From contig NZ_AP017312.1 of NCBI RefSeq assembly GCF_002355375.1, forward strand, positions 2,869,001-2,933,000: 64,000 nucleotides of DNA, in the 5' to 3' direction. Below the pieces are notes generated by a model that had not been told where the DNA came from, did no database searches, and saw only the letters and a list, made by a program, of their open reading frames with translations. Within the stretch, counting starts at the first letter, position 1, and each line of letters starts with the position of its first letter. This document shows positions 39,150-50,896 of the stretch, piece after piece. The stretch is from Aneurinibacillus soli. GTDB lineage: Bacteria > Bacillota > Bacilli > Aneurinibacillales > Aneurinibacillaceae. Both the position numbers and the translations under genes were made by a program.

Positions 39150-39464
39150 TTAATCCAGGAATGTGTCTGGATCAAGGTCGGCGAAGTCATCTAGTTCTTC
39201 GAATTCGTCCGTATACATCTCATCTTTTTCTTCGTCTCCGCATGAATCACAGATGACGATACACAGCTTTGTTTCTCCAACGATTTCAACCGCGTATTCA
39301 CGCTCAACAGTGACAACGATTACCCCGTTACTTGACACCCGCGCTTCCACACAATTTGGTTCCTGCGTGACCCGCGCCGTTACTTCAATATCCCCGCGGC
39401 AGTTGCTGTCATAGTAGGAAAGCGGCACGACTTCAACAAACTTGACGGTTTCTTTCAACACTGT
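39150..39464 (-). CDS. cotE: cotE, 3' part (C-terminal 104 codons) - spore coat morphogenetic protein
   Basis: This is the second half of CotE, the protein that directs assembly of the outer spore coat. VLKETVKFVEVVPLSYYDS, VTQEPNCVEARVSSNG-VIVVTVEREYAVEIVGETK and the acidic tail ending DDFADLDPDTFLD match the CotE C-terminus (B. subtilis: VKYVDVIKL..., QPNCLEV..., EREFLAEVVGETK, acidic tail). It has no start codon with a ribosome site. The reading frame begins at the crossover CTGT (39461-39464) and continues, after excision of the 10.93-kb element, from the 5' part at 50397-50627. Joined length: 77 + 104 = 181 residues. Confidence 0.93.
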   Translation of the reverse strand, partial: TVLKETVKFVEVVPLSYYDSNCRGDIEVTARVTQEPNCVEARVSSNGVIVVTVEREYAVEIVGETKLCIVICDSCGDEEKDEMYTDEFEELDDFADLDPDTFLD

Positions 39465-39491
39465 CGTTTCTCTGAAGGTGGGGTAATTGTA
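39456..39491. other. Element junction (att site, cotE 3' side)
   Basis: CAACACTGT of cotE (39456-39464) runs into the element arm TGAAGGTGGGGTAATTGTA (39473-39491). CTGT (39461-39464) is the sequence shared with the other junction. The arm is the mirror partner of the arm at 50371-50389 (16 of 19 positions pair). Confidence 0.85.
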
Positions 39492-39494
39492 AAG

Positions 39495-39760
39495 GCTTTT
39501 GTAATATCGACAACGTTTGGTGGTGAGGGAGTAGGAGAAGGGATGAGCCGTTCGTTTGAGTACGCTTACAGGGAAGCCCTGACTGTCCGCTCCGAGAGCC
39601 CGACGAACTCGCCCGCAAAGAAAGGCCTACGATGTTGATTCGCCGAAGGATTGCGGGCAAAGGCCCGTTCGCCGTTCTCCCTCCGCTGAGTAGACGCGTA
39701 CAGGCACTCTCTTGCTCATCCCTTCTCCCACTCCCCGCACAACGTTTCGGTTTACAAAAA
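39495..39760 (-). repeat. Structured repeat copy R1
   Basis: ~265 bp, inverted relative to R2 and R4. Read on the minus strand it has a long outer stem (GGGGAGTGGGAGAAGGGATG / mirror at the other end), an inner helix GCCCGCAA/TTGCGGGC, and conserved unpaired blocks CTCAGCGGA and GGAGCGGACAGTC. The repeat begins immediately inside the element's attachment arm. Confidence 0.8.
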
Positions 39761-39835
39761 ACATGCAATGCCAGAATGCATTTGCTTGGGTCGCAGCCGA
39801 CTTTTCGAAAAACAGCTTCGGTTCAACAACTCAAA

Positions 39836-40113
39836 CATGCTTGACGGACTGATAAGCAAAGCCCAGTTGGACAAGAGAAGAGAGATGCAGGGAACGCCTT
39901 TACGCGTGTATCTCAGCGGAAGGGGGATGTGAGCGTGCCTTTGCCCATCCTTCCTCGTAGCCATACATCGCTGGCTTATTTGGATGGGCGAGCGAACAGC
40001 CCCCTGGAGCGGACAGTTACAGCTTCCCTGCCACGCGTAACCAAGTGACAGGTAGCTCTCTTCTCTTGTCCACCTCCAAGCTTCTACTTATATCCAATCC
40101 GTCAAACATGTCT
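39836..40113 (+). repeat. Structured repeat copy R2
   Basis: Same layout as R1 but a different stem sequence: GGACAAGAGAAGAGAG with its perfect complement, inner helix GCCCATCC/GGATGGGC, and the conserved blocks CTCAGCGGAAGG and GGAGCGGACAGTT. The extreme ends (ACATGCTTGACGGA / mirror) also pair. Confidence 0.8.
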
Positions 40114-40136
40114 TTTCGGCTAAAACGATAAAAGCA

Positions 40137-40168
40137 GGGGCTATCCTATGCGCAGGATAGCCCCTTTC
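40137..40168 (-). terminator. Terminator of the aldehyde dehydrogenase gene
   Basis: GGGGCTATCC...GGATAGCCCC, 10-bp perfect stem, ~15-45 bases after the stop on the minus strand. Confidence 0.85.
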
Positions 40169-40181
40169 AAAAATAGCTTAT

Positions 40182-41672
40182 TTAGTTCTTGAACCAGCCA
40201 ACCGGCTCGACTTGCATGTTAATATTAATCTGCTTCACTTCTGTAAATTCTTCAAGGCCAAACGTTCCGAGTCCACGACCGATACCGCTCTGCTTGTAGC
40301 CGCCCCATGGTGCTTCATTGTATGTCGGGTGGTAGCTGTTAATCCATGTAATACCGGAGCGCAGCTTCTTAATCACGCGCATTGCTTTTGCTCCGTCCAG
40401 TGTGAACACGCCGCCTGCAAGACCGTATACCGTTCCGTTCGCCAGTTCAATCGCTTCGGCTTCATCTTTGAACTTCTGAACCGCAAGTACAGGTCCGAAA
40501 ATTTCTTCCTGTACAATGCGCATATTTGGCTTTGTATCAACAAAGATCGTCGGCTCAACGAAGTACCCGTTCTCAAAACCGTCTTTTGTAATGCGATTTC
40601 CGCCGCATACGAGACGCGCTCCTTCTTGTTTACCAATCTCGATATAGCCGAGTACTTTTTCCATATGCGCCTGGCTAACAAGCGGTCCCATTTCTGTGTC
40701 AGGATGGTCGCCTGCTCCCACTGTAATCTGCTTCGCACGCTCAACAAGACGCTCCACGAATTTGTCATGAATGCTTTCTTCTAACAACAGACGAGAACCT
40801 GCGGAACATACTTGCCCCTGGTTGCAGAAAATACCGAACAGCGCATAGTCTACAGCTGTCTCAAAATCTGCATCCGCGAATACGATATTCGGAGATTTAC
40901 CACCGAGTTCGAGCGAGATTTTTTTGATGTTGCCCGCAGCCGCCTTCATGATACTGCGACCCGTTGCCGTACCACCTGTAAACGATATTTTATCAACAAG
41001 ATGGCTCTCAGCCAGTTCATTGCCAACAGTCGGGCCTGCGCCCATTACCATGTTAATTACACCGTGCGGAATGCCCACTTCTTCAATAATTTCAAACAGC
41101 TTAATCGCTGTAACCGGCGTTACTTCAGATGGCTTGAAGACAACCGTGTTTCCCGCTGCAAGAGCCGGAGCAATTTTCCATACACCCATGAGAAGCGGGA
41201 AGTTCCACGGTACGATTAGCGCACATACACCAACCGCTTCGCGGACGACCATTGCCTGCATCGGGTCTGCTACGTGGTATGTTTGTCCATCTGGTTTTGT
41301 TGCAAGACCTGCATAGTAACGGAAGCAAGCCGCCGCATCCGCCACATCGAATTCTGCTTCACGAAGTGGTTTGCCGTTATCAAGCGTTTCTAAGCGGGCA
41401 ATTTCTGCTGCATATTCTTCAAGCTTATCTGCAATCGCGAACAAATAGCTAGCTCGCTGTACAGCCGGCATTTCAGACCAGCCACCTTCATCAAATGTAC
41501 GACGCGCTACTTCAATCGCCCGGCGTGCATCTTCTACATTCCCTTCTGCTGCTTTCGCGATCACTTGACCGTTCGCCGGGTTCACGATATCACGTGTTTC
41601 CCCACTTTGTGCATCTACCCATTTTCCATCCACATACATTTTCAGATCGAGCACTTGTGTTACTGTTGACAT
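40182..41672 (-). CDS. NAD(P)-dependent aldehyde dehydrogenase
   Basis: A 496-residue enzyme of the ALDH superfamily, close in layout to betaine-aldehyde or phenylacetaldehyde dehydrogenases. The NAD site VFKPSEVTPVTA, the general base Glu in KKISLELGGKSPNIV and the catalytic Cys in GIFCNQGQVCSAGSRLL are all present; length is full. AAGGAGGAAT precedes the ATG. It is carried inside the cotE element with its own terminator; upstream lies a 35-bp palindrome that could be its operator. The natural aldehyde is not determined by the sequence. Confidence 0.93.
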   Translation of the reverse strand: MSTVTQVLDLKMYVDGKWVDAQSGETRDIVNPANGQVIAKAAEGNVEDARRAIEVARRTFDEGGWSEMPAVQRASYLFAIADKLEEYAAEIARLETLDNGKPLREAEFDVADAAACFRYYAGLATKPDGQTYHVADPMQAMVVREAVGVCALIVPWNFPLLMGVWKIAPALAAGNTVVFKPSEVTPVTAIKLFEIIEEVGIPHGVINMVMGAGPTVGNELAESHLVDKISFTGGTATGRSIMKAAAGNIKKISLELGGKSPNIVFADADFETAVDYALFGIFCNQGQVCSAGSRLLLEESIHDKFVERLVERAKQITVGAGDHPDTEMGPLVSQAHMEKVLGYIEIGKQEGARLVCGGNRITKDGFENGYFVEPTIFVDTKPNMRIVQEEIFGPVLAVQKFKDEAEAIELANGTVYGLAGGVFTLDGAKAMRVIKKLRSGITWINSYHPTYNEAPWGGYKQSGIGRGLGTFGLEEFTEVKQININMQVEPVGWFKN

Positions 41673-42050
41673 ATCGATTCCTCCTTATAATTACTAATTT
41701 GTACGGCACCATTTCATTTCATCGCTATGCTCCTGTTCTAGAATGAACGAGGAAAGCAAGTATCAGGATAATCACTTTTCCCTTACCCTTCCACATTTCA
41801 AATTATTGCAACTATTATGCCAATAAAAATTCCGCGTACTATATGGGCGTATGCATTCATTCGTAACTTTTCGGTATTCATTTTTGAATTATATATTCAA
41901 AAATGAATAGCATTGACTTATAATTACGAATATTTTAGTTTATGAAAATTTAGTATTTAGTTCTTCTTCAACTAATGAGCAGATAGTTGGAACGAAAAAC
42001 TACCCAATATATGTAAATTTATGATAAAATCACACAAAGGGGGCTATGAT
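41673..42050. other. AT-rich divergent promoter region
   Basis: Between the ALDH gene (minus) and the lipoprotein gene (plus). It holds the palindrome at 41875-41909 and presumably both promoters. No further gene seen. Confidence 0.5.
41875..41909. promoter_or_regulatory. 35-bp perfect palindrome
   Basis: TATTCATTTTTGAAT-TATAT-ATTCAAAAATGAATA, 15-bp perfect arms. No T run follows, and it lies in a divergent intergenic region, so a repressor/activator operator is likelier than a terminator. Confidence 0.6.
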
Positions 42051-42353
42051 TTGAAACGAGTATTTCTAATAATTTCATTGAGTGTATTTTTAATAACAAC
42101 TGGATGTACTCCCATTAATAAAATTAGTGAAAAAGAGATGAAAAGTGAAACTGAGATTAGTCCAATAAAAATTGTAGAAAATAGCCCAGTAACTACCCAT
42201 ATTGATAATAAATGTGATTTTACCTATCTTGAAGGATTGCCAGAGGATAAATTAAAGAAGTACAACCTTTTTTTAAAAGATGGAAATACTGATCACTTAA
42301 CAGACTTCACACCAGAACAGATTGTCTTACTCTATATGAACTTAGTATTGGAG

Positions 42354-42520
42354 CTTGAACACTCCCCCCACTTAAAAGTGGGGAATTCCTGGCTCGTCCA
42401 CTCTACTGAGCAGAATTGTACGATAGTACCCCAGGCTACCCCCGTGTGTCCCACGGTTGGTTAGATTATATTTCTAACAGTCTCAGTCCTTCTTGCAAAA
42501 TATTGATCGCGGCATTTATA
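42354..42520 (-). ncRNA. Predicted TnpB omega-RNA (reRNA)
   Basis: In this family the RNA guide comes from the end of tnpB through the right end, with the guide taken from flanking DNA. Here the scaffold ends at the hairpin and GTTCAA at ~42355-42360, and the guide would read into the lipoprotein gene (CTCCAATACTAAGTTC). Position is predicted from family knowledge. Confidence 0.55.
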
Positions 42521-43569
42521 TCCCGATTATGGTGTGTATGACATTCAGGGCAATCCCATTCACGTAGGTTCAGGTTTTTTACATCCTGGTTCCGGTAGCC
42601 ACAAGCTGAACACAACTGACTCGATGGGAATGTCTTTCCGACAAAGCAAACCGTGCGACCATACCAGTTTGCCTTATATGTAAGCATGCGGCGAAACTCT
42701 GACCATGAGGCATCTGCGATTGATTTAGCCAGCTTGTGATTCTTCTGCATATTTACCACCTGCAAGTCCTCCAAGCAGATCGTTTGGTTTTCACGAATCA
42801 GCGTAGTGGACAGCTTTTGCAGGAAGTCCATGCGGCAATTGGTTATTTTCTCATGTAGACGAGCCACCTTAATTCGGGCTTTGTTCCAGTTAGAACTGCC
42901 TTTTGTACGTTTGCTCATGATACGTTGAAAGCGTGCCAGTTTCGTTTCATATTTTCGCAGATACTTCGGATTATCGAACGTTTCTCCATTTGAGAGAATG
43001 GCAAACTTCTTGAGGCCGAGGTCTACTCCGACCTGGCTATCTACTTTCGGTAATGGTTGAATTTCTATTTCACATAGCACCGATACAAAATATTTGCCGG
43101 ATGGATTGCGGCGAACAGTAGCAGACAGGACGCGACCTTCTACTTCCCGACTTTTGGCGAAGCGAATAAGCCCAAGCTTCGGAAGTCGGATATGTGTTCC
43201 TTCGATCCGAATCGCTTCCTTGTTGTTTGTGGTATTGTACGATTGCCTGCGATTCTTCCGGCTTTTGAATTTCGGATACCCCGTTTTCTCGTTGAAAAAC
43301 GTTTGATACGCCCGGTCCAGGTCTTGCAAGGCGTTTTGCAGTGCCGTAGAATCCGGCTCTTTTAGCCACGTTATTTCTTTTTTTAGTTGGGTCAAAAGAG
43401 AAGAGCACGCCTTGTAGCTTAGTGTCTTTTGCTCAGTCTCATACATTTCTTTCCGTTTCGCCAGGAAGTGATTGAACACATAGCGAACACAGCCGATGGA
43501 CTTGTTGATGAGTGTTGCCTGTTCCTCAGTCGGATAGATACGGAATTTGAAGCCTTTATGTTTGATCAT
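42466..43569 (-). CDS. tnpB: RNA-guided endonuclease TnpB (IS605 OrfB)
   Basis: A 367-residue TnpB. N-terminal [20 protein letters not shown] (helix-turn-helix region); RuvC-like active site: Asp in [16 protein letters not shown], Glu in [12 protein letters not shown], Asp in [12 protein letters not shown]; zinc finger [10 protein letters not shown]...[13 protein letters not shown] between the last two. All catalytic residues are intact. GGAGGTG upstream of the ATG. TnpB cuts the donor site after excision using its omega-RNA, which keeps the element in place. Confidence 0.95.
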
Positions 43570-43949
43570 ATATGTTTCACCTCCTCCGTTTCTATTGTAC
43601 CTGACCGTTTAGGGAGAAAACAGTCGGACTTGTGAGAAGGCAAATCGCCTTCCCTGGTCCGAAGCCGATTCATCCCCCACTTTCGCTATCACTTAGAAGT
43701 GGGAGTCTTCTCGGCTGAAATGATAAAGTTGATAAAATATATGCTCTAACCTACGATAACAGTCAGCTTCCTTCCCTTGATCAATTCATAAATGAATACG
43801 ACGATTATTTATCCCAATATTTAAATGACGATTATTTGAAATATCGATTTTATGATTCCATTTCAGTAGATGAGAGAACAAGAAAAAAGGAAGAGAAAAA
43901 TAATTTATTTCATGTAGCGTATACAACTAACAGGGGCGTTAGATTAGGA

Positions 43950-43991
43950 AGATAGGGAAATCCTTTATAAGCAGGGGGTTCCCTATCTTTT
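43950..43991 (+). terminator. Terminator of the lipoprotein gene
   Basis: AGATAGGGAA ... TTCCCTATCT then TTTAT, overlapping the stop codon. Confidence 0.8.
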
Positions 43992-44028
43992 ATCAAAATA
44001 TCAATCGTAACATTTAACACAGCCCATT

Positions 44029-45570
44029 TTAATAACTGAACCGCAAGCAAAGATGCGTTACGGTGTTCCGGTCATACACTTCTACTCTTTTTACAAGTCG
44101 ATGGAAGAAGACTCGCAGCGTTTGATGACTTTCCGTTCCTACAAGGGCATGTCGAAAGGCGAGCACCTCTCCAAGCGTGTATACCTGATTTTCTGTCTGT
44201 CCGCTTTCAATCATCTGTTTTTGTATCCTCTTCATCTGCTGCGTAACAGCATCAATCCGATCTTTAAGTCCAGCGAGGAGCTCGCGTAGCATATCCGGTT
44301 CAAGCAGGTCACTTGTAGCTATAATGTTCATCTGTTTTTTCAATAGCTTCTTCCGTTCTTCCTCAAGCGCTGTGTATTTATGTGCAAGTTCCCCGCTTTT
44401 TGCCTTTGCATATGAATGAATGGGATGTGAGTCCTGAGCCCGAGCCAATTCGTCCATCAATAAGCGAAACACCGCTTGCTCCAGTTCTTCTGCCGGAATC
44501 GGCTCATGCACACAAACCGCTCTGCCGTATTTATGATTTTGACCGCATTTATAATAGCGATAGCGGTACTTTTTCTGCCCTGGCTTTGTTGATTGGATCG
44601 TCACCATTCCTGCACCGCACCGCGCACAGTATAGAAGACCCGCAAGTGGGTACTTTACCCGGTTAGATGGCATTCCTGTTTTCGTACTGCGTTCGCACAA
44701 CAACTCCTGGGTGCGATTGAACAGGCTCCGATCAACTATCGCAGGATGCGCCTCCTGGACGATAATTGGATTGCCAGTTTCGATATACTTCCGGTTTTTT
44801 TTGACGAGATTTTGATTATCATCGTATACACGTTCGAGTTTTGTTCGCTTCACGCCGTATACGACATCCCCCATATACACCGGATTGCTGAGCATTTTGC
44901 GGACAGTCGCCTGCTGGAAGCGATTATTCCGGGTGCTCCGGTAGCCATGCGCGTTAAGCCGTTCCGCAATGGCAGGTGTTCCGAGGCGGTCATGCACATA
45001 GGAATGAAAGGCGAGACGTACCGCTTCTGCCTGCGATTCATCAATTACAAGGTGCTGCGTGTTTGGATCACGCCGATAGCCGAACGGGACATGGGCTGAC
45101 GGCCATTTGCCAGTGCGCGCCTTCTCTCGGAAGCCAGCAGACACCCGACTGCTAATACGTTCGGATTCGACTTCTGCCATAAAGTTGCTAATCTTGAACA
45201 ATAGCTTTGACTCCGGTCGCTCAGAATCATACCCATCGTGTGACTTGATTCGTACCCCGGACGCTTCGAGAATGCGGACGATTTTCAAATTTTCTTCCTC
45301 ATCCCGCCCCATCCGGGTAATCTCTTTGAACAGCACAACGCGGAATTTCCCTGCTCGTGCATCCTCAAGCAGACGTTTCATTGCCGGGCGCTCCAGGATG
45401 GTCGTATAGTAACCGCTGTAGCCTTCATCGACATACAGCAAGTCGTCGGCTGCTGCATACTCTTCAGAAAACATGCGGTGCATGTAATCTTTCATCAGCG
45501 AAATCTGGTGGTCGATCGAATCTCCTTGCTGGTCCGTAGAAACCCTGGCATAAATCGCAACCGGTATCAT
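44029..45570 (-). CDS. Large serine recombinase, SpoIVCA-like
   Basis: A 513-residue site-specific recombinase. The catalytic domain has VAIYARVSTDQQGDSIDHQ (nucleophile Ser at residue 10), VLFKEITRMGRD (catalytic Arg region) and a long E helix; a Recombinase domain follows (PFGYRRD..., GTPAIAERLNAHGYRSTRNNRF), then a zinc ribbon (LLYCARCGAGM ... YKCGQNHKYG...VC) and a coiled coil (KYTALEEERKKLLKKQMN). This is the large-serine-integrase layout used by SpoIVCA at skin. The start at 45570 has GGAGGG 8 bases upstream. It is the only recombinase in the element and is the obvious agent of excision. Confidence 0.93.
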   Translation of the reverse strand: MIPVAIYARVSTDQQGDSIDHQISLMKDYMHRMFSEEYAAADDLLYVDEGYSGYYTTILERPAMKRLLEDARAGKFRVVLFKEITRMGRDEEENLKIVRILEASGVRIKSHDGYDSERPESKLLFKISNFMAEVESERISSRVSAGFREKARTGKWPSAHVPFGYRRDPNTQHLVIDESQAEAVRLAFHSYVHDRLGTPAIAERLNAHGYRSTRNNRFQQATVRKMLSNPVYMGDVVYGVKRTKLERVYDDNQNLVKKNRKYIETGNPIIVQEAHPAIVDRSLFNRTQELLCERSTKTGMPSNRVKYPLAGLLYCARCGAGMVTIQSTKPGQKKYRYRYYKCGQNHKYGRAVCVHEPIPAEELEQAVFRLLMDELARAQDSHPIHSYAKAKSGELAHKYTALEEERKKLLKKQMNIIATSDLLEPDMLRELLAGLKDRIDAVTQQMKRIQKQMIESGQTENQVYTLGEVLAFRHALVGTESHQTLRVFFHRLVKRVEVYDRNTVTHLCLRFSY

Positions 45571-45618
45571 CCATACATCCCTCCGACTCACATGCTGTAC
45601 GATGATTCATCCGGTACT

Positions 45619-45650
45619 ATGTGTATGCACAAGTGGGTTGTACGTATTTA
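45619..45650 (-). promoter_or_regulatory. Candidate sigma-E promoter of the recombinase
   Basis: On the minus strand ATA (45647-45645), a 17-base spacer, and CATACACAT (45627-45619), close to the sigma-E pattern ATA-N16-CATACA. The predicted start lies ~45 bases before the ATG. The same CATACACAT occurs upstream of cotE. Confidence 0.55.
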
Positions 45651-45668
45651 TGTACAGCCTTTTGGTGT

Positions 45669-45922
45669 AGATTTTCCCCAACGTATTGTGAAGGAGCGGG
45701 ATCGGGCGGGGCCTCGTCACTTTGGTACGCTTACGAAGAAGTTGGGACTGTCCGCTCCAGGGGCCAGACGAACTCGCCCACAAAAGGTGCCTGCGATGAA
45801 TTTTCATCGAAGCATTGTGGGCAAAAGCCCGTTCGCCTGGCCCCTTCCGCTGAGGAGTCGCGTACAGGCGTTCCGTTGCCCCGCCCGATCCCGCTCCTGA
45901 CACACAATTTGGATGAAATCCC
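45669..45922 (-). repeat. Structured repeat copy R3
   Basis: Orientation as R1. Outer stem GGAGCGGGATCGGGCGGGGC with perfect complement, inner helix GCCCACAA/TTGTGGGC, conserved CTCAGCGGAAGG, GGGCGAGTTCG and GGAGCGGACAGTC. It lies just upstream of the recombinase promoter. Confidence 0.8.
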
Positions 45923-46279
45923 TCAAGTATAATCAAGAGGCTGAGCTTTGCTACGCAGATAAAAATAAAGGAAACAGGCTTCCAAAAAGCCAGTCAAGAT
46001 CGAACACATCCGTTCTGGTGTCGAGTGGGTTTTGATAAACCAAAACGTTGTGTGGGGAGTGGGAGAAGGGATGAGCAAGAGAGCGCCTGTACGCGTCTAC
46101 TCAGCGGAGGGAGAACGGCGAACGGGCCTTTGCCCGCAATCCTTCGGTGAATCAACATCGTGGGCTTTTCTTACGATTAGTCAAGTGAATCATAATGATT
46201 TTGAGTGATTATTTTGTAAGTAACAGGGGGAGGAAGCGGAGAGAAAATAACAGGTTTCACAGAAAGTATGGATGTTGAC

Positions 46280-46330
46280 ATACCAAATAAACCTAGGGTG
46301 TTTTTATTTTTTGCTAGGTTTATTTGGTAT
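46280..46330. terminator. Perfect 17-bp hairpin at the IS110 left end
   Basis: ATACCAAATAAACCTAG ... CTAGGTTTATTTGGTAT, a 17-bp loop. It probably ends the transposase transcript or blocks reading-in from outside. Confidence 0.6.
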
Positions 46331-46350
46331 ATGGTATGATAGAAATTGCA

Positions 46351-47568
46351 TTATGATCTGGTGGCACACTGGTACTCATAGTGCTGATTGTGTGTAATAA
46401 GGTAGAAGAGGCACTTCAAGAGCTTATTTACACAAGCGATCGACGCAACTTTATGACACTTGTTATAAGGTTGCGTTTTTACTTTGTCATAGTACTCAAC
46501 GAGATGGTTGTTCCCGAAACGACGCTGTTTAATCATATTCTGAATGACAAGGTAAAGCAGTTTACGCAGGTGCTTGTTTCCGCGCTTATTGATTTTATCC
46601 TGGAAAAAGGTTTTACCGGACTGGAACCGTCGGATATCAATCCCTGCAAAGGCGTTGAGCTGTTTCGGATTGTCGAAGCGGCGGATGTCTCCGATTTCGG
46701 CGAGTAAACGCACCGCTGTATTTACCCCAATGCCCGGAAAGCTGAGAAGAACTTGATAGTCCTCTCGATGCATGCTCATTTCCTCCATTTGCCGAATCAG
46801 AGCTTCTCGTTGGCGAAGAATCTCCAAATAACGTTTGACATAGATGCGTAGCTGGTCACAAAGAACATCGGTTGCGGAAACCGCCGGATACGAGTTCTGT
46901 GCGGCTTCAAGCAACTGGATGGCTTTCTTCTCAGCGGTACCTGCCGATAACTTTTTGTCGGTACTCTTGAGAATCCGGTTTCTGATTACGGTTTTGGAAA
47001 GACCGTTCACGAGATCGGGATGTGGAAATAACTGAATGACATGTAAACAGAGCTCCGATCGGCTTGTAAAGATCGTTTCCAGTTCGGAAAAGGTCAGTTG
47101 AATGACTTTATGCATCCGATTGCGAAGAGTAGAAAGTTCTCCGTCTAATTCTTGGTAAAACCGAGAGAGAGACTTTAGCTGCTGGAAGAAGTCATTGGGT
47201 ACTTCTTTTTCTCTTCGAGAGACCGTGAAATGAGTCAACGCCAGCCGATGAGCGTCACTTCGATCCGTTTTATGCATCCGCATAGAAGCGGACTGCAGTT
47301 TGGCTTCAAGCGGGTTTAACAGGCAATAGGTGTACTGATGATCTTGCATAAAGCGTTCCAGTTGTCTGGAGTATACGCCCGTAGCTTCGAAAACAATGGA
47401 CGGTTGTTCCCCATCTTGCTCGATCAGCTTCTCCATGCAGGCATGCAACCCTTCAAAATCGGAACGGGTATGCCGGATTTCTCCTTCAAACTCACAGTGC
47501 CGGTCGGCATTGTACACCACCCAATAGCTCTTTCCCATACTTACATCAAATGCGACTACATGTTTCAT
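46351..47568 (-). CDS. IS110-family DEDD transposase
   Basis: A 405-residue transposase/recombinase. N-terminal RuvC-like DEDD domain: AFDVSMGKSYWVV (Asp), VFEATGVYSRQL (Glu), HKTDRSDAHRLAL (Asp-x-x-Asp). C-terminal Tnp domain: LLSFPGIGVNTAVRLLAEIGDI and NAFAGIDIRRFQSGK with the catalytic Ser region. AGGAGGAG precedes the ATG at 47568. It appears intact. These enzymes use a structured bridge RNA to choose target and donor. Confidence 0.92.
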   Translation of the reverse strand: MKHVVAFDVSMGKSYWVVYNADRHCEFEGEIRHTRSDFEGLHACMEKLIEQDGEQPSIVFEATGVYSRQLERFMQDHQYTYCLLNPLEAKLQSASMRMHKTDRSDAHRLALTHFTVSRREKEVPNDFFQQLKSLSRFYQELDGELSTLRNRMHKVIQLTFSELETIFTSRSELCLHVIQLFPHPDLVNGLSKTVIRNRILKSTDKKLSAGTAEKKAIQLLEAAQNSYPAVSATDVLCDQLRIYVKRYLEILRQREALIRQMEEMSMHREDYQVLLSFPGIGVNTAVRLLAEIGDIRRFDNPKQLNAFAGIDIRRFQSGKTFFQDKINKRGNKHLRKLLYLVIQNMIKQRRFGNNHLVEYYDKVKTQPYNKCHKVASIACVNKLLKCLFYLITHNQHYEYQCATRS

Positions 47569-47607
47569 GGTTGTTCTCCTCCTGATGTTCGTTGTAGAAG
47601 CCTTCAC

Positions 47608-47810
47608 GCATCCTTATCGATTCCCTTTTCTTATACACGATCTCAATGGATCCAACATACTGAAGCTGATTCAAATAAGGGCAGTGAAGTTGGCCTGTTT
47701 CTTTGACGGATTCAAGATCCCGAAGCCCACTCGGCCTGTTTCTTCACTTCTACCACAAAAAAATAGTAGCACAAACCGTGGCCTTGGTCTGTGCTACTAA
47801 TCTTAGTATG
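47608..47810 (-). ncRNA. Candidate IS110 bridge-RNA region
   Basis: Non-coding left-end region upstream of the transposase, containing a 9-bp hairpin (47765-47798). In the IS110 group the bridge RNA is transcribed from here. I cannot define its exact ends or loops by eye. Confidence 0.35.
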
Positions 47811-47937
47811 TTTCTTTGCGGGCGAGTTCGCCAGGCTCCCGGAGCGGACAGTCACCGCTTCCCTGCAAGCGTACTCAAGCGAACGGCTCCTCCCTTCTCC
47901 CACTCCCTCACCACCACACGTTGTCGATATCACAAAA

Positions 47938-47977
47938 AGGCTATCCCGTTCGCCATGCTCTGGCTTTTGGGACAGCC
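47938..47977 (-). terminator. Terminator after small element gene
   Basis: AGGCTGTCCC ... GGGATAGCCT then TTTTTG on the minus strand, ~20 bases after the small gene. Confidence 0.75.
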
Positions 47978-47995
47978 TCTGTCCTTAGATCGTTC

Positions 47996-48169
47996 TTATG
48001 TGTTCTCCCCCTCGTCTATCCTCTCCATGACTTTATCTACATTTTCACCGAAAACCACCTCTACATCACTTCCGAATTTCTCTTCATAAAAAAGCTGAAT
48101 CTGCTCCCTAAAGTACACGACAATCGGCTCATCCCCATGCTCCACCTGCAAAATGCGGATCATCTTCAT
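47996..48169 (-). CDS. Small acidic element protein
   Basis: A 57-residue protein, MKMIRILQVEHGDEPIVVYF..., predicted beta-alpha-beta, acidic C-terminal half (VMERIDEGENT). GGGTGATG is upstream; a second ATG at 48163 is also possible. A terminator follows. Unknown family; carried by the cotE element. Confidence 0.5.
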   Translation of the reverse strand: MKMIRILQVEHGDEPIVVYFREQIQLFYEEKFGSDVEVVFGENVDKVMERIDEGENT

Positions 48170-48233
48170 CACCCGCTAGTATATATATGAAGCAGATTAA
48201 AAGCACATATCTTGTACTCACTTAATGGTAGGT

Positions 48234-49967
48234 TTAATTAAAAGTAAATTTCCCTAACTCCCCTCGCAAATGCTGCGAGATTTGCGCCATGTCTTCAGCA
48301 TTTGCCGCAATCTCCTGTACAGTTGCCGACTGTTCTTGTGCGACCGCGACTACCTCCTGTGCAGCCGACGCCGCCTCTTCTAGAATCTCTGTAATCTCCT
48401 CGATATGCGCAAGCACATTCTCTACGGTCAACTCAATCTCACTAAATGACTGCGCCATCCCGCGTGAATCTTCTTCTTTGTCTTTCATGCAGGCTGCCAT
48501 CGCATCGAGCGCATGCCCACCTTCATGCAAAAGCTCGATCTGTTCCGCAACGGCCTGCTCACTGGCCCGCATGGATAAAACCGTATGATCCATCTCCGAC
48601 AGAATCACCCGCACAAGCTCGGTGATTTGCCGAGCTGCTCCATTTGACTGCTCCGCAAGCATCCGTACTTCATCGGCTACCACAGCAAACCCTCGCCCAT
48701 GTTTCCCCGCGCGTGCCGCTTCAATCGCCGCATTCAGCGCTAGCAAGTTCGTCTGGCTAGCAATGCTCGTAATGACCGTTACCATATCACCAATTTGCGA
48801 AGATCGCTCGGTAAGCCGATCCATCGTTTCGCATGCCTGCCCAACAGAGTTTGAAATCGCCGGCATATGTTCCACTGCATGCCGAATGGCCTGATGACCC
48901 TGCCGGGAGATGCTTGCTGCCTGCTGTGTCCGGTGACTATTCTGCTCTACCTGCTTTTTGCCCGTGCCGACCACATCGCGTGCGTGCTTCATCATTCGAA
49001 CAATGTCACGTGCCCGTTCGTTCTGCTGCATACTTCCGTCCGCTACTTCCTGAATCGTATGCGCGACTTGCACAGAGTTTGCTTCCGATTGTTCAGTAGC
49101 AGCAGATAATCGCTCCGCGTCTGCTGCTACTCCGTCCACACTCGTTTTGACATCGCGTAGAAACTCAGCCAATGTAGCCTCCATCACCTGAAAAGAGTGT
49201 GCCAGCCTGCCCACTTCATCTCGCTGACTAGCTGATACCGTCACATTTGGTTTCATTGGCGTGGAAAAATCACCCGCCGCAATTTTCTCAGCGGTTTCTG
49301 TCACGTCCTGTAACGGGCGCAAGCTTCGGCGGACCAGCCAGGAAAACAGTGCCGTCGATATGAGCACAAGCACTACACTTGTCAGCACAAAGGTCGGGAT
49401 ATTTTCCATAATTATGCCCTGAACAAGCTCATTCACAAATGAAGCACTCATATCCATTTCTAACACGCCAATCACCTGGCCCGCTTTATCTCTAACCGGT
49501 GCTACTGCAGGTAAATAATCTCCATATTTCTCATCATGCACTAGGTGCATACGCAGCGTCTCTCCCCGCATCACAGCCGCCACCTGCTCAGTACTAAGCG
49601 CGTCTGTCGACTCACCAATCGGGGATGCAATATTCGAATTCTTCGGCTGTCCGTCCAACAAAATACGCACCTGATTATTCCGCACTTCAACCGTCGTAAT
49701 GTACAAAGCCCCTGTTTTTTCACGTATATCATTCAACTCACGACGTAATTTCCAGTACGTCTCGTCTTCGACCGGCTGTGCGAGAAACTTCTTATACGCT
49801 GCTGTGTCCACATATTTTGCTGTATTCTCAGCCATCCGGCTGCTGTATTCCGCCACCGTCTGCTCCACTGCTCTACTCACACTGCGGTATGAAAAAAACG
49901 CGCTCATTCCTACTACAAAAATAATGAGCGATGCAGACAGCAGGAATAGTTTCCGTCGCAAACTCAT
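48234..49967 (-). CDS. Methyl-accepting chemotaxis protein (in the element)
   Basis: A 577-residue chemoreceptor. Membrane helix (about 8-28), extracellular sensor of ~165 residues, probably a single-Cache domain ([45 protein letters not shown]), second helix (about 195-215), HAMP, and a signalling domain with the tip [20 protein letters not shown]. Start ATG 49967 with GAGGAG upstream. It is unrelated to the dCache receptor at 25197. A chemoreceptor is unexpected cargo for a sporulation-linked element. Confidence 0.92.
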
Positions 49968-50072
49968 CAATTCACCAGCTCTCCTCTTTTATGTGTTTGT
50001 GCACAACATTATTCAGTTCTGCATACAAGAGAAAGCCAGGCACATACAGCCTGGCTTTCCTCCTTCTATTAT

Positions 50073-50228
50073 TCATTCCTGAATGAACAGATTGTCTCCA
50101 TCTTCTGTATGAAAGGAGTCGTCATGATACGTTTCTACCATGATCTCGCGGCAGTTTGTACACTCCGCACGGTTTCTCTCCCAGCTAACCAACTCATTAC
50201 CGCAAGAAATGCACTTATCTTCTGTCAT
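50073..50228 (-). CDS. Small zinc-ribbon protein
   Basis: A 51-residue protein with two CxxC knuckles, DKCISCGNELVSW and AECTNCREIM, spaced as in rubredoxin-like zinc ribbons, and an acidic tail. AAAGGAGG upstream. It is the first complete gene inside the element next to the cotE 5' part. Function unknown. Confidence 0.6.
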   Translation of the reverse strand: MTEDKCISCGNELVSWERNRAECTNCREIMVETYHDDSFHTEDGDNLFIQE

Positions 50229-50324
50229 CCTTACCCTGCCTCCTTTATATTTGCTAGGATGTCTGCATCCCAAGCATTTTATGCTTGCTTATGTACAATG
50301 CACATAATGTGCCAAAAATAAAAA

Positions 50325-50353
50325 GAAGCCTGCCATCACTTCGGACAGACTTC
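50325..50353 (-). terminator. Terminator after the truncated cotE frame
   Basis: GAAGTCTGTC-CGAAGTGAT-GGCAGGCTTC then TTTTTATTTT on the minus strand, 22 bases after the stop of the unrecombined cotE frame. It would stop cotE transcription from entering the element in cells that have not excised it. Confidence 0.85.
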
Positions 50354-50370
50354 CACTTCTATACACGGTA

Positions 50371-50400
50371 TACAATTAACCTCCCTTCACATCTGTGTTG
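50371..50400. other. Element junction (att site, cotE 5' side)
   Basis: Element arm TACAATTAACCTCCCTTCA (50371-50389), then CAT and the shared CTGT (50393-50396), then cotE GTTG. Mirror partner of 39473-39491. Confidence 0.85.
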
Positions 50401-50627
50401 TTGTTGTAAGAATACCAGATGTTGACTTCATACGATCCGCTTACCTCGACAGTTTCTCCGATTTTGTTCGCCCGATATGTGTGATTAATCACCCAGGCAC
50501 CCAGAATCGTGACTGCTTTGTGGGATGGGGTAACGGTGTGAGTGGCTTCGGAAAACTTACGACCGCGGCCACAAACCGCTTTCGTAATAATTTCCCGGCA
50601 CTGCACTTCTTTATTTGTACTCGACAT
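50397..50627 (-). CDS. cotE: cotE, 5' part (N-terminal 77 codons)
   Basis: [62 protein letters not shown] match the N-terminal half of CotE ([49 protein letters not shown] in B. subtilis), including the SafA/SpoIVA-interaction region. The start at 50627 has GGAGGAGG. Without excision the frame runs seven more codons into the element (TDVKGG) and stops at 50376, giving an 83-residue stub. With excision codon 77 is followed by ACA at 39464. It stands directly after ricA, as in other Bacillales. Confidence 0.95.
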
Positions 50628-50662
50628 GTGGCTGTTACCTCCTCCATACAGCATTTCCCTAC

Positions 50663-50671
50663 ATGTGTATG
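50663..50671 (-). promoter_or_regulatory. Candidate sigma-E -10 box upstream of cotE
   Basis: CATACACAT on the minus strand, ~36 bases before the start codon, identical to the box before the recombinase. I do not see a good -35 at the expected spacing. cotE is transcribed by sigma-E in B. subtilis. Confidence 0.4.
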
Positions 50672-50737
50672 CAGGGCGTTCATCACGGGTGCAGCCCTCT
50701 TTGTCTATCAGACCGCCCACATTATGAAGCCCCCAAA

Positions 50738-50896
50738 TCAGCGCCTTGACTGATAATCCATAAGTATGCAGGGCATACGCCGTGGGTGAAAGCGGAGAAA
50801 ATGGGCATGCGCCCGATTCACACCTGTTTGCTTCGCATCAGCGACAACTTTCTCCAGTTTATCCACATCAGCAATCAGTTGATCGCACAGTTTCAC
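50738..50896 (-). CDS. Possible small protein between ricA and cotE
   Basis: A 52-codon frame with GTG start, MKLCDQLIADVDKLEKVVADAKQ..., helical and coiled-coil-like. The same frame is open further upstream (SEDKILALFYWEERDKIV) but overlaps the ricA terminator and lacks a start. It may be a remnant of a gene or not real. Confidence 0.25.
   Translation of the reverse strand: MKLCDQLIADVDKLEKVVADAKQTGVNRAHAHFLRFHPRRMPCILMDYQSRR

Follow-up and report, generated by a model that had tools for sequence, protein, structure and literature searches.

A putative mother-cell promoter before the recombinase gene of a cotE-interrupting element in Aneurinibacillus soli

The window, by which we mean the whole stretch of 64,000 nucleotides that was analysed, contains the coat gene cotE in two pieces. 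The Pfam CotE profile (PF10628) is matched twice on the minus strand, 50376-50720 covering profile positions 1-71 and 39150-39461 covering positions 75-175. Comparison with intact relatives places an intervening element of 10,923 bp (39469..50391) between the 5' half of the gene (50376..50627, minus strand; host coding ends at 50392 and the element supplies the stop) and its 3' half (39150..39468, minus strand). Our CotE search covered this genome (G000) and 60 relatives, among which a family subset comprises 11 genomes. In five of these (G000, G001, G004, G006 and G007) cotE is present in two fragments, and in the other six (G002, G003, G005, G008, G009 and G010) it is intact as one gene. The interruption lies within the same codon, codon 79, in all five genomes, after the NNNT codons and inside the E codon of ETTVLK. 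Set against intact relatives, both halves identify a GA dinucleotide in this codon as the crossover, with the core at 50392-50393 in the junction of the 5' half (50367..50416, minus strand) and at 39469-39470 in that of the 3' half (39444..39493, minus strand). Rejoined in silico, the halves give an in-frame CotE of 184 amino acids without a stop in all five genomes. The implied attP is palindromic around the crossover, with CAATTA...TAATTG arms, a symmetry that we take to be the expected look of a large serine recombinase site. Arm matches centred on the core number 15, 15, 13, 9 and 15 of 20, against 1-10 at other shifts; the symmetry is clear in four genomes and weak in G001 (9/20 on the core versus 8 at another shift).

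The element measures 10,923 bp in G000, 17,158 bp in G006 and 4,010 bp in G004, and in G001 and G007 the cotE halves are on separate contigs. Between the halves of G000 we found genes for a recombinase, an IS110 transposase, TnpB, a chemotaxis receptor and an aldehyde dehydrogenase; in the 4 kb G004 element, the genes that can be recognised are a small ORF, the recombinase and a chemotaxis receptor. This cargo receptor, a methyl-accepting chemotaxis protein (48234..49970, minus strand), is also carried by the elements of G006 and G004. The three receptors are 54-82% identical and are placed differently within each element, and the sequence read for G001 and G007 showed none. Judged by eye, an IS605-type TnpB insertion seems to interrupt a lipoprotein-like ORF (42021-42464, within 42021-43950), and similar long intergenic sequences repeat around the element genes (39500-40100, 45690-46180 and 47800-47930).

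The recombinase (44029..45570, minus strand, ATG at 45570) is a large serine recombinase of 513 amino acids with Resolvase, Recombinase and Zn-ribbon domains, which matches a PHROG integrase family with an E-value of 1.8e-113. When this genome and 20 relatives were queried, orthologs were found in G006, G001, G007 and G004 (86, 66, 65 and 64% identity), that is, including G000, in five of five genomes with split cotE and in none of the six with an intact gene (Fisher P 0.002, kinship ignored). The best match in an intact family genome reaches E 1.7e-50 at 30% identity. In G000 and G006 the recombinase lies between the two halves of cotE; in G001, G004 and G007 it is at most about 300 bp away from one of them. 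A phage origin was considered and not retained, with tblastn in phages giving 609 records, all below 60% identity and the top row at 30.5%; a pattern method found no relatives in viral contigs.

Upstream of the recombinase, all five elements carry a small ORF of 43-55 amino acids. Its stop is 35, 57 and 63 bases from the recombinase start in G004, G007 and G001; in G000 the 55-aa ORF (47996..48163, minus strand) is now 2.4 kb away, with IS110 in between. The predicted product is acidic (pI 4.2 and 4.5 in the two computed). A profile search of 151 genomes gave nine matches in seven genomes, eight of them preceding a recombinase; since six of the nine are query rows, the independent support amounts to two of three. 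Over the 1.5 kb read of G127 (L195), what follows a homolog is an excisionase-like HTH gene and not a recombinase. Searches for a match to a known recombination directionality factor (RDF) yielded none that convinced: PHROG gave no match, NCBIfam one weak row (E 0.067), PDB sequences E 0.3 or worse, and fold comparison nothing under E 6, with a structure model of pLDDT 76 and pTM 0.53. Because no family or fold match is convincing, it is the position of the small ORF and its homologs upstream of recombinases that makes it a candidate directionality factor. RDFs are reported, in the excerpts available, to be dissimilar to one another. Before the small ORF, GTACAAGATATG ... CATATATAT (48181..48217, minus strand) is a putative promoter, and GTACAAGATAT is present there in all five elements.

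On the minus strand before the recombinase, TGTACATAAATACGTACAACCCACTTGTGCATACACATAG is followed by GGAGGG and then by the ATG. Direct counting confirmed the layout given in the initial annotation: CATACACAT, the putative -10 of a recombinase promoter (45619..45627), lies 49-57 bases before the ATG, an ATA that could form the -35 core (45645..45647) stands 17 bases further upstream, and the same nonamer recurs 36 bases before the cotE ATG at 50627 (50663-50671, minus strand). Between the putative -35 and -10 of the recombinase there is a GTACAA box (45638..45643, minus strand). A third copy of CATACACAT within the window, at 2233 on the plus strand, brings the count to three against 0.51 expected, a number reached by one of 100 shuffles; ATA-N16-18-CATACA occurs five times against 1.75 expected, and 5/100 shuffles reach five. 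Genome-wide (4.117 Mb), there are 80 copies of the nonamer versus 55 of a reversed control, and ORFs of at least 90 amino acids, on either strand, overlap with 77 of these copies. The recombinase and cotE copies are counted among these 77, because chance ORFs cross both sites. Nine of the 80 copies, again including these two, are followed 10-170 bases downstream by an ORF of at least 80 amino acids with a Shine-Dalgarno-like start. Both sites are real, and by sequence alone they are not far beyond chance. As 77 of 80 copies overlap ORFs, identity over nine bases tells little; we rejected the view that the nonamer signals shared control, and as evidence on excision timing it is only modest.

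The block that surrounds the recombinase site, from ACATAAATACGTACAACCCACT to TGCATACACATA, is identical at 34 of 36 bp between G000 and G006 and retains ATA-N17-CATACACAT. By comparison, identity between the two genomes is 81.8% over the recombinase gene and 75% immediately downstream (P 0.03 and P 0.003 under the respective backgrounds), and the sequence upstream of it is hardly alignable. This conservation lends moderate support to a recombinase promoter. Before the recombinases of G001, G004 and G007, three of the five elements, the block is missing. Fold prediction for the gap between small ORF and recombinase gave a terminator-like hairpin before T-runs in G004 and G001 and none in G007; both stretches from a second recombinase locus, described below, also fold into a hairpin before T-runs, which makes four of the five stretches folded.

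The initial annotation had placed the recombinase site close to the sigma-E pattern, and its letters agree with this: a CATACA-type -10 and an ATA-type -35 correspond to what we take to be the sigma-E consensus, except for an A at position 8 of the -10, where sigma-E presumably has T. Its spacing and its rank point the other way. On our assumption that ATA forms positions 4-6 of the sigma-E 8-mer, the spacing in the 8-mer/10-mer scheme is 14, against 12 ± 1 for sigma-E. The latter value is the published one, as given in an excerpt of the source. On a small sigma-E matrix for the genus, the recombinase site ranks 2337th of 2991 window sites, and the small-ORF site and both cotE sites rank 1980th, 2418th and 2802nd; these ranks are weak counter-evidence, as the set is small and without a SpoIIID-activated gene. 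It comprises 14 sites from four genes (spoIVA, spoIIIAA, yabP and yqfC), counted after all five spoIIID rows (no clear -10), the rows with a wrong ORF or start (spoIIIAA of G000 and G007, yqfC of G000 and G006, yabP of G004) and the near-duplicate G006 spoIVA row had been left out. It is plausible that the recombinase has a mother-cell promoter, and the assignment of this promoter is a reasonable guess.

Two promoter-like modules precede cotE itself on the minus strand, a proximal CACCC-N14-GCATACACAT (50663..50691) and a distal CACCC-N14-GCATACTTAT (50760..50788). In the form CACCC-N14-GCATA, the proximal one is present in 11 of 11 family genomes and the distal one in nine; the proximal nonamer equals CATACACAT in six genomes and differs in five. 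The earlier remark that the cotE copy has no obvious -35 applies to a sigma-E type ATA, which is absent there, but not to the invariant CACCC box, found 14 bp before GCATA in all 11 genomes. Judged by the sigma-K consensus letters that we presume, of which the TA end of the -10 is unmatched in the cotE copy, the proximal module appears sigma-K-like. A sigma-K promoter combines a 5-mer -35 with a GCATA-type -10; the published distance between them, as given in the excerpt available, is 15 ± 1 bp, and the proximal CACCC-N14-GCATA fits this spacing. The recombinase copy has no CACCC box 13-15 bp before its GCATA, and the two sites look like members of different promoter classes.

For B. subtilis, excerpts of published work describe spoIVCA as a sigma-E/SpoIIID gene and a sigma-E promoter P1 and a sigma-K promoter P2 of cotE, which bears out, with sigma-K in addition, the premise that spoIVCA and cotE are both sigma-E genes in that species. 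Shared control by way of the identical nonamer, in contrast, is not supported, given a nonamer that varies among the family genomes and a sigma-K-like cotE module. The suggested coupling of excision with cotE expression survives in part. The recombinase lies inside the element that splits cotE, and excision would therefore be tied to CotE production; if, however, the two promoters do belong to different classes, excision would come before the later phase of cotE transcription and not at the same time.

Boxes similar to the GTACAA of the recombinase block, which carries GTACAACCC, occur in several promoters of the genus: CGTACAGGCAC precedes the -10 of sigK in all five loci read, GTACAAG is present in five of five spoIVA promoters, and GGACAAA in the three spoIIIAA loci with a start found. 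By eye, the distance from box to CATA is 11 bp at the recombinase and 12 at the second locus, 22 at sigK and 23 at the small ORF of G000. We tentatively read these GTACA boxes as SpoIIID-like. According to the excerpts available, B. subtilis spoIVCA and sigK require SpoIIID besides sigma-E, and SpoIIID also acts on spoIVA in that species. Excision may be timed not by the recombinase promoter but by that of the small ORF, which carries a box also present in the sigK promoters of the genus. As a marked motif, GTACAANCC was dropped, with three window copies against 1.3 expected and 15/100 shuffles reaching three, which is not clear of chance. The sigK gene is itself apparently split in G001, G002, G006 and G007, and in G000 partial sigK matches lie at 1241703, 1247426, 1253860 and 1264280 around a full-length gene at 1259349.

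A second recombinase, 43% identical to the first and accompanied by a homologous small ORF, is present in G006 (L133:5024-9600) and G000 (L132:7491-9575). The second element of G006 separates MEHFSIGDWVTFPYNDKGK from TLLLTGYVKEMNKAQ... in a gene that has no Pfam name and is intact in G001-G005; in the 19 kb read of G000, we saw its 3' half but not its 5' half. Upstream of this gene, GYAACAA occurs in six of six and CCATA in four of six loci read. In both genomes the second recombinase has a promoter related to that of the cotE-element recombinase, with ATA-N17-CATA and the sequences AAATAGTACAA and AAATAGTACAATCC. We tentatively suggest, as a possibility and not as the likelier course, that one family of recombinases and small proteins was inserted twice in the same genomes, maybe into mother-cell genes (cotE and the small conserved gene of the second locus), and that both excisions could be timed by GTACA-box promoters shared with sigK of the genus. 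In the lineage of G000 and G006, the recombinase would then have gained a second promoter of its own, active in the mother cell, in the place that a terminator-like hairpin occupies in relatives, and an irreversible DNA cut would gate CotE production.

The site under study is probably the region from which the large serine recombinase of the cotE-intervening element is transcribed; excision of the element in the mother cell would rejoin cotE. In a sporulating mother cell, the recombinase and the small acidic protein would recombine the element ends at the GA core, release a circle and restore the reading frame of cotE, which would allow the full-length protein to be made; the spore's own chromosome would retain the split gene. 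In G000 and its sister G006, the recombinase may have its own promoter, probably active in the mother cell under sigma-E and perhaps with SpoIIID, and cotE would be expressed from its two conserved modules, the proximal one sigma-K-like.

It is possible, though we think it the less probable course, that the recombinase is constitutive, expressed through sigma-A or read-through, that a sporulation promoter of the small ORF times excision, and that the recombinase CATACACAT is incidental. This would agree with the distribution of the candidate signals, as GTACAAGATAT precedes the small ORF in five of five elements and the recombinase block is present in two of five, and with the division of labour reported, in excerpts, for three other systems: C. 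difficile CD1231 is constitutive, probably through sigma-A, with an RDF dependent on sigma-E and SpoIIID; in SPbeta, sprA is driven by a sigma-A promoter and sprB by a sigma-E/K promoter; and phi3T int is constitutive with a sporulation-timed rdf. Yet a scan of 45450-46350 for the sigma-70 consensus gave no match on the recombinase strand, the block is kept in G006 although the sequence upstream of it hardly aligns, and spoIVCA of the B. subtilis skin element is itself reported as a sigma-E gene.

That the recombinase site is a sigma-K rather than a sigma-E promoter, with excision late, appears unlikely to us. A CATA-type -10 is used by both mother-cell sigma factors, and the identical nonamer near cotE stands in a module of sigma-K-like spacing, but the CACCC box of that module is missing at the recombinase. 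In addition, the excerpts available describe skin-type recombinase or RDF genes as timed by sigma-E and SpoIIID. We consider it very improbable that cotE is merely broken by a dead element, a pseudogene without excision. The G000 element does hold IS110 and IS605-type insertions, the former between the small ORF and the recombinase, but all five genomes keep open reading frames across the junction, in the recombinase and in the small ORF, which speaks against this reading, as a dead gene should decay.

CotE is a hub that governs outer-coat assembly in B. subtilis, according to excerpts of published work. If our reading is true, a conserved and removable interruption of cotE would extend programmed DNA rearrangement from late gene regulators to coat assembly, and the 4 kb element of G004 would offer a small unit for the study of element timing and maintenance. 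In the excerpted literature the interrupted genes are sigK, spoVFB, spoVR, spsM, gerE, yabG and kamA. The available parts of PMC5595907, PMC10747680, PMC4191935, PMC8987985, PMC6957869 and PMC13141910 do not mention cotE, and among the matches listed in a search that left most subscription journals outside, we found no report of an interrupted cotE or of an Aneurinibacillus element.

Among known systems, whose published accounts are used here partly in excerpt, the skin element of B. subtilis (sigK, spoIVCA, skr) likewise splits a mother-cell gene that is rejoined in frame, encodes a large serine recombinase within the interruption, and has sigma-E timing, as we propose here. In skin, skr overlaps the start of spoIVCA, which may be compared with the small ORF upstream of our recombinase; the latter matches no family searched and is likened to the RDF Skr by position. 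Skin is prophage-like, whereas we found no phage structural gene among eight window proteins (Pfam) or among the recognisable genes of the G004 element, and it targets sigK, in contrast to the structural coat gene cotE. In Bacillus cereus ATCC10987, the gin element is, like ours, not prophage-like, and it splits a sporulation gene that is rejoined in sporulation, with gerE instead of cotE as the target. The skin element of C. difficile (CD1231/CD1234) also combines a recombinase with a small acidic RDF, the latter under sigma-E and SpoIIID, but its recombinase is constitutive, unlike what we propose. Finally, vfbin, vrin, SPbeta/spsM, phi3T/kamA and yin are likewise mobile elements that interrupt genes expressed in sporulation, each in a target other than cotE.
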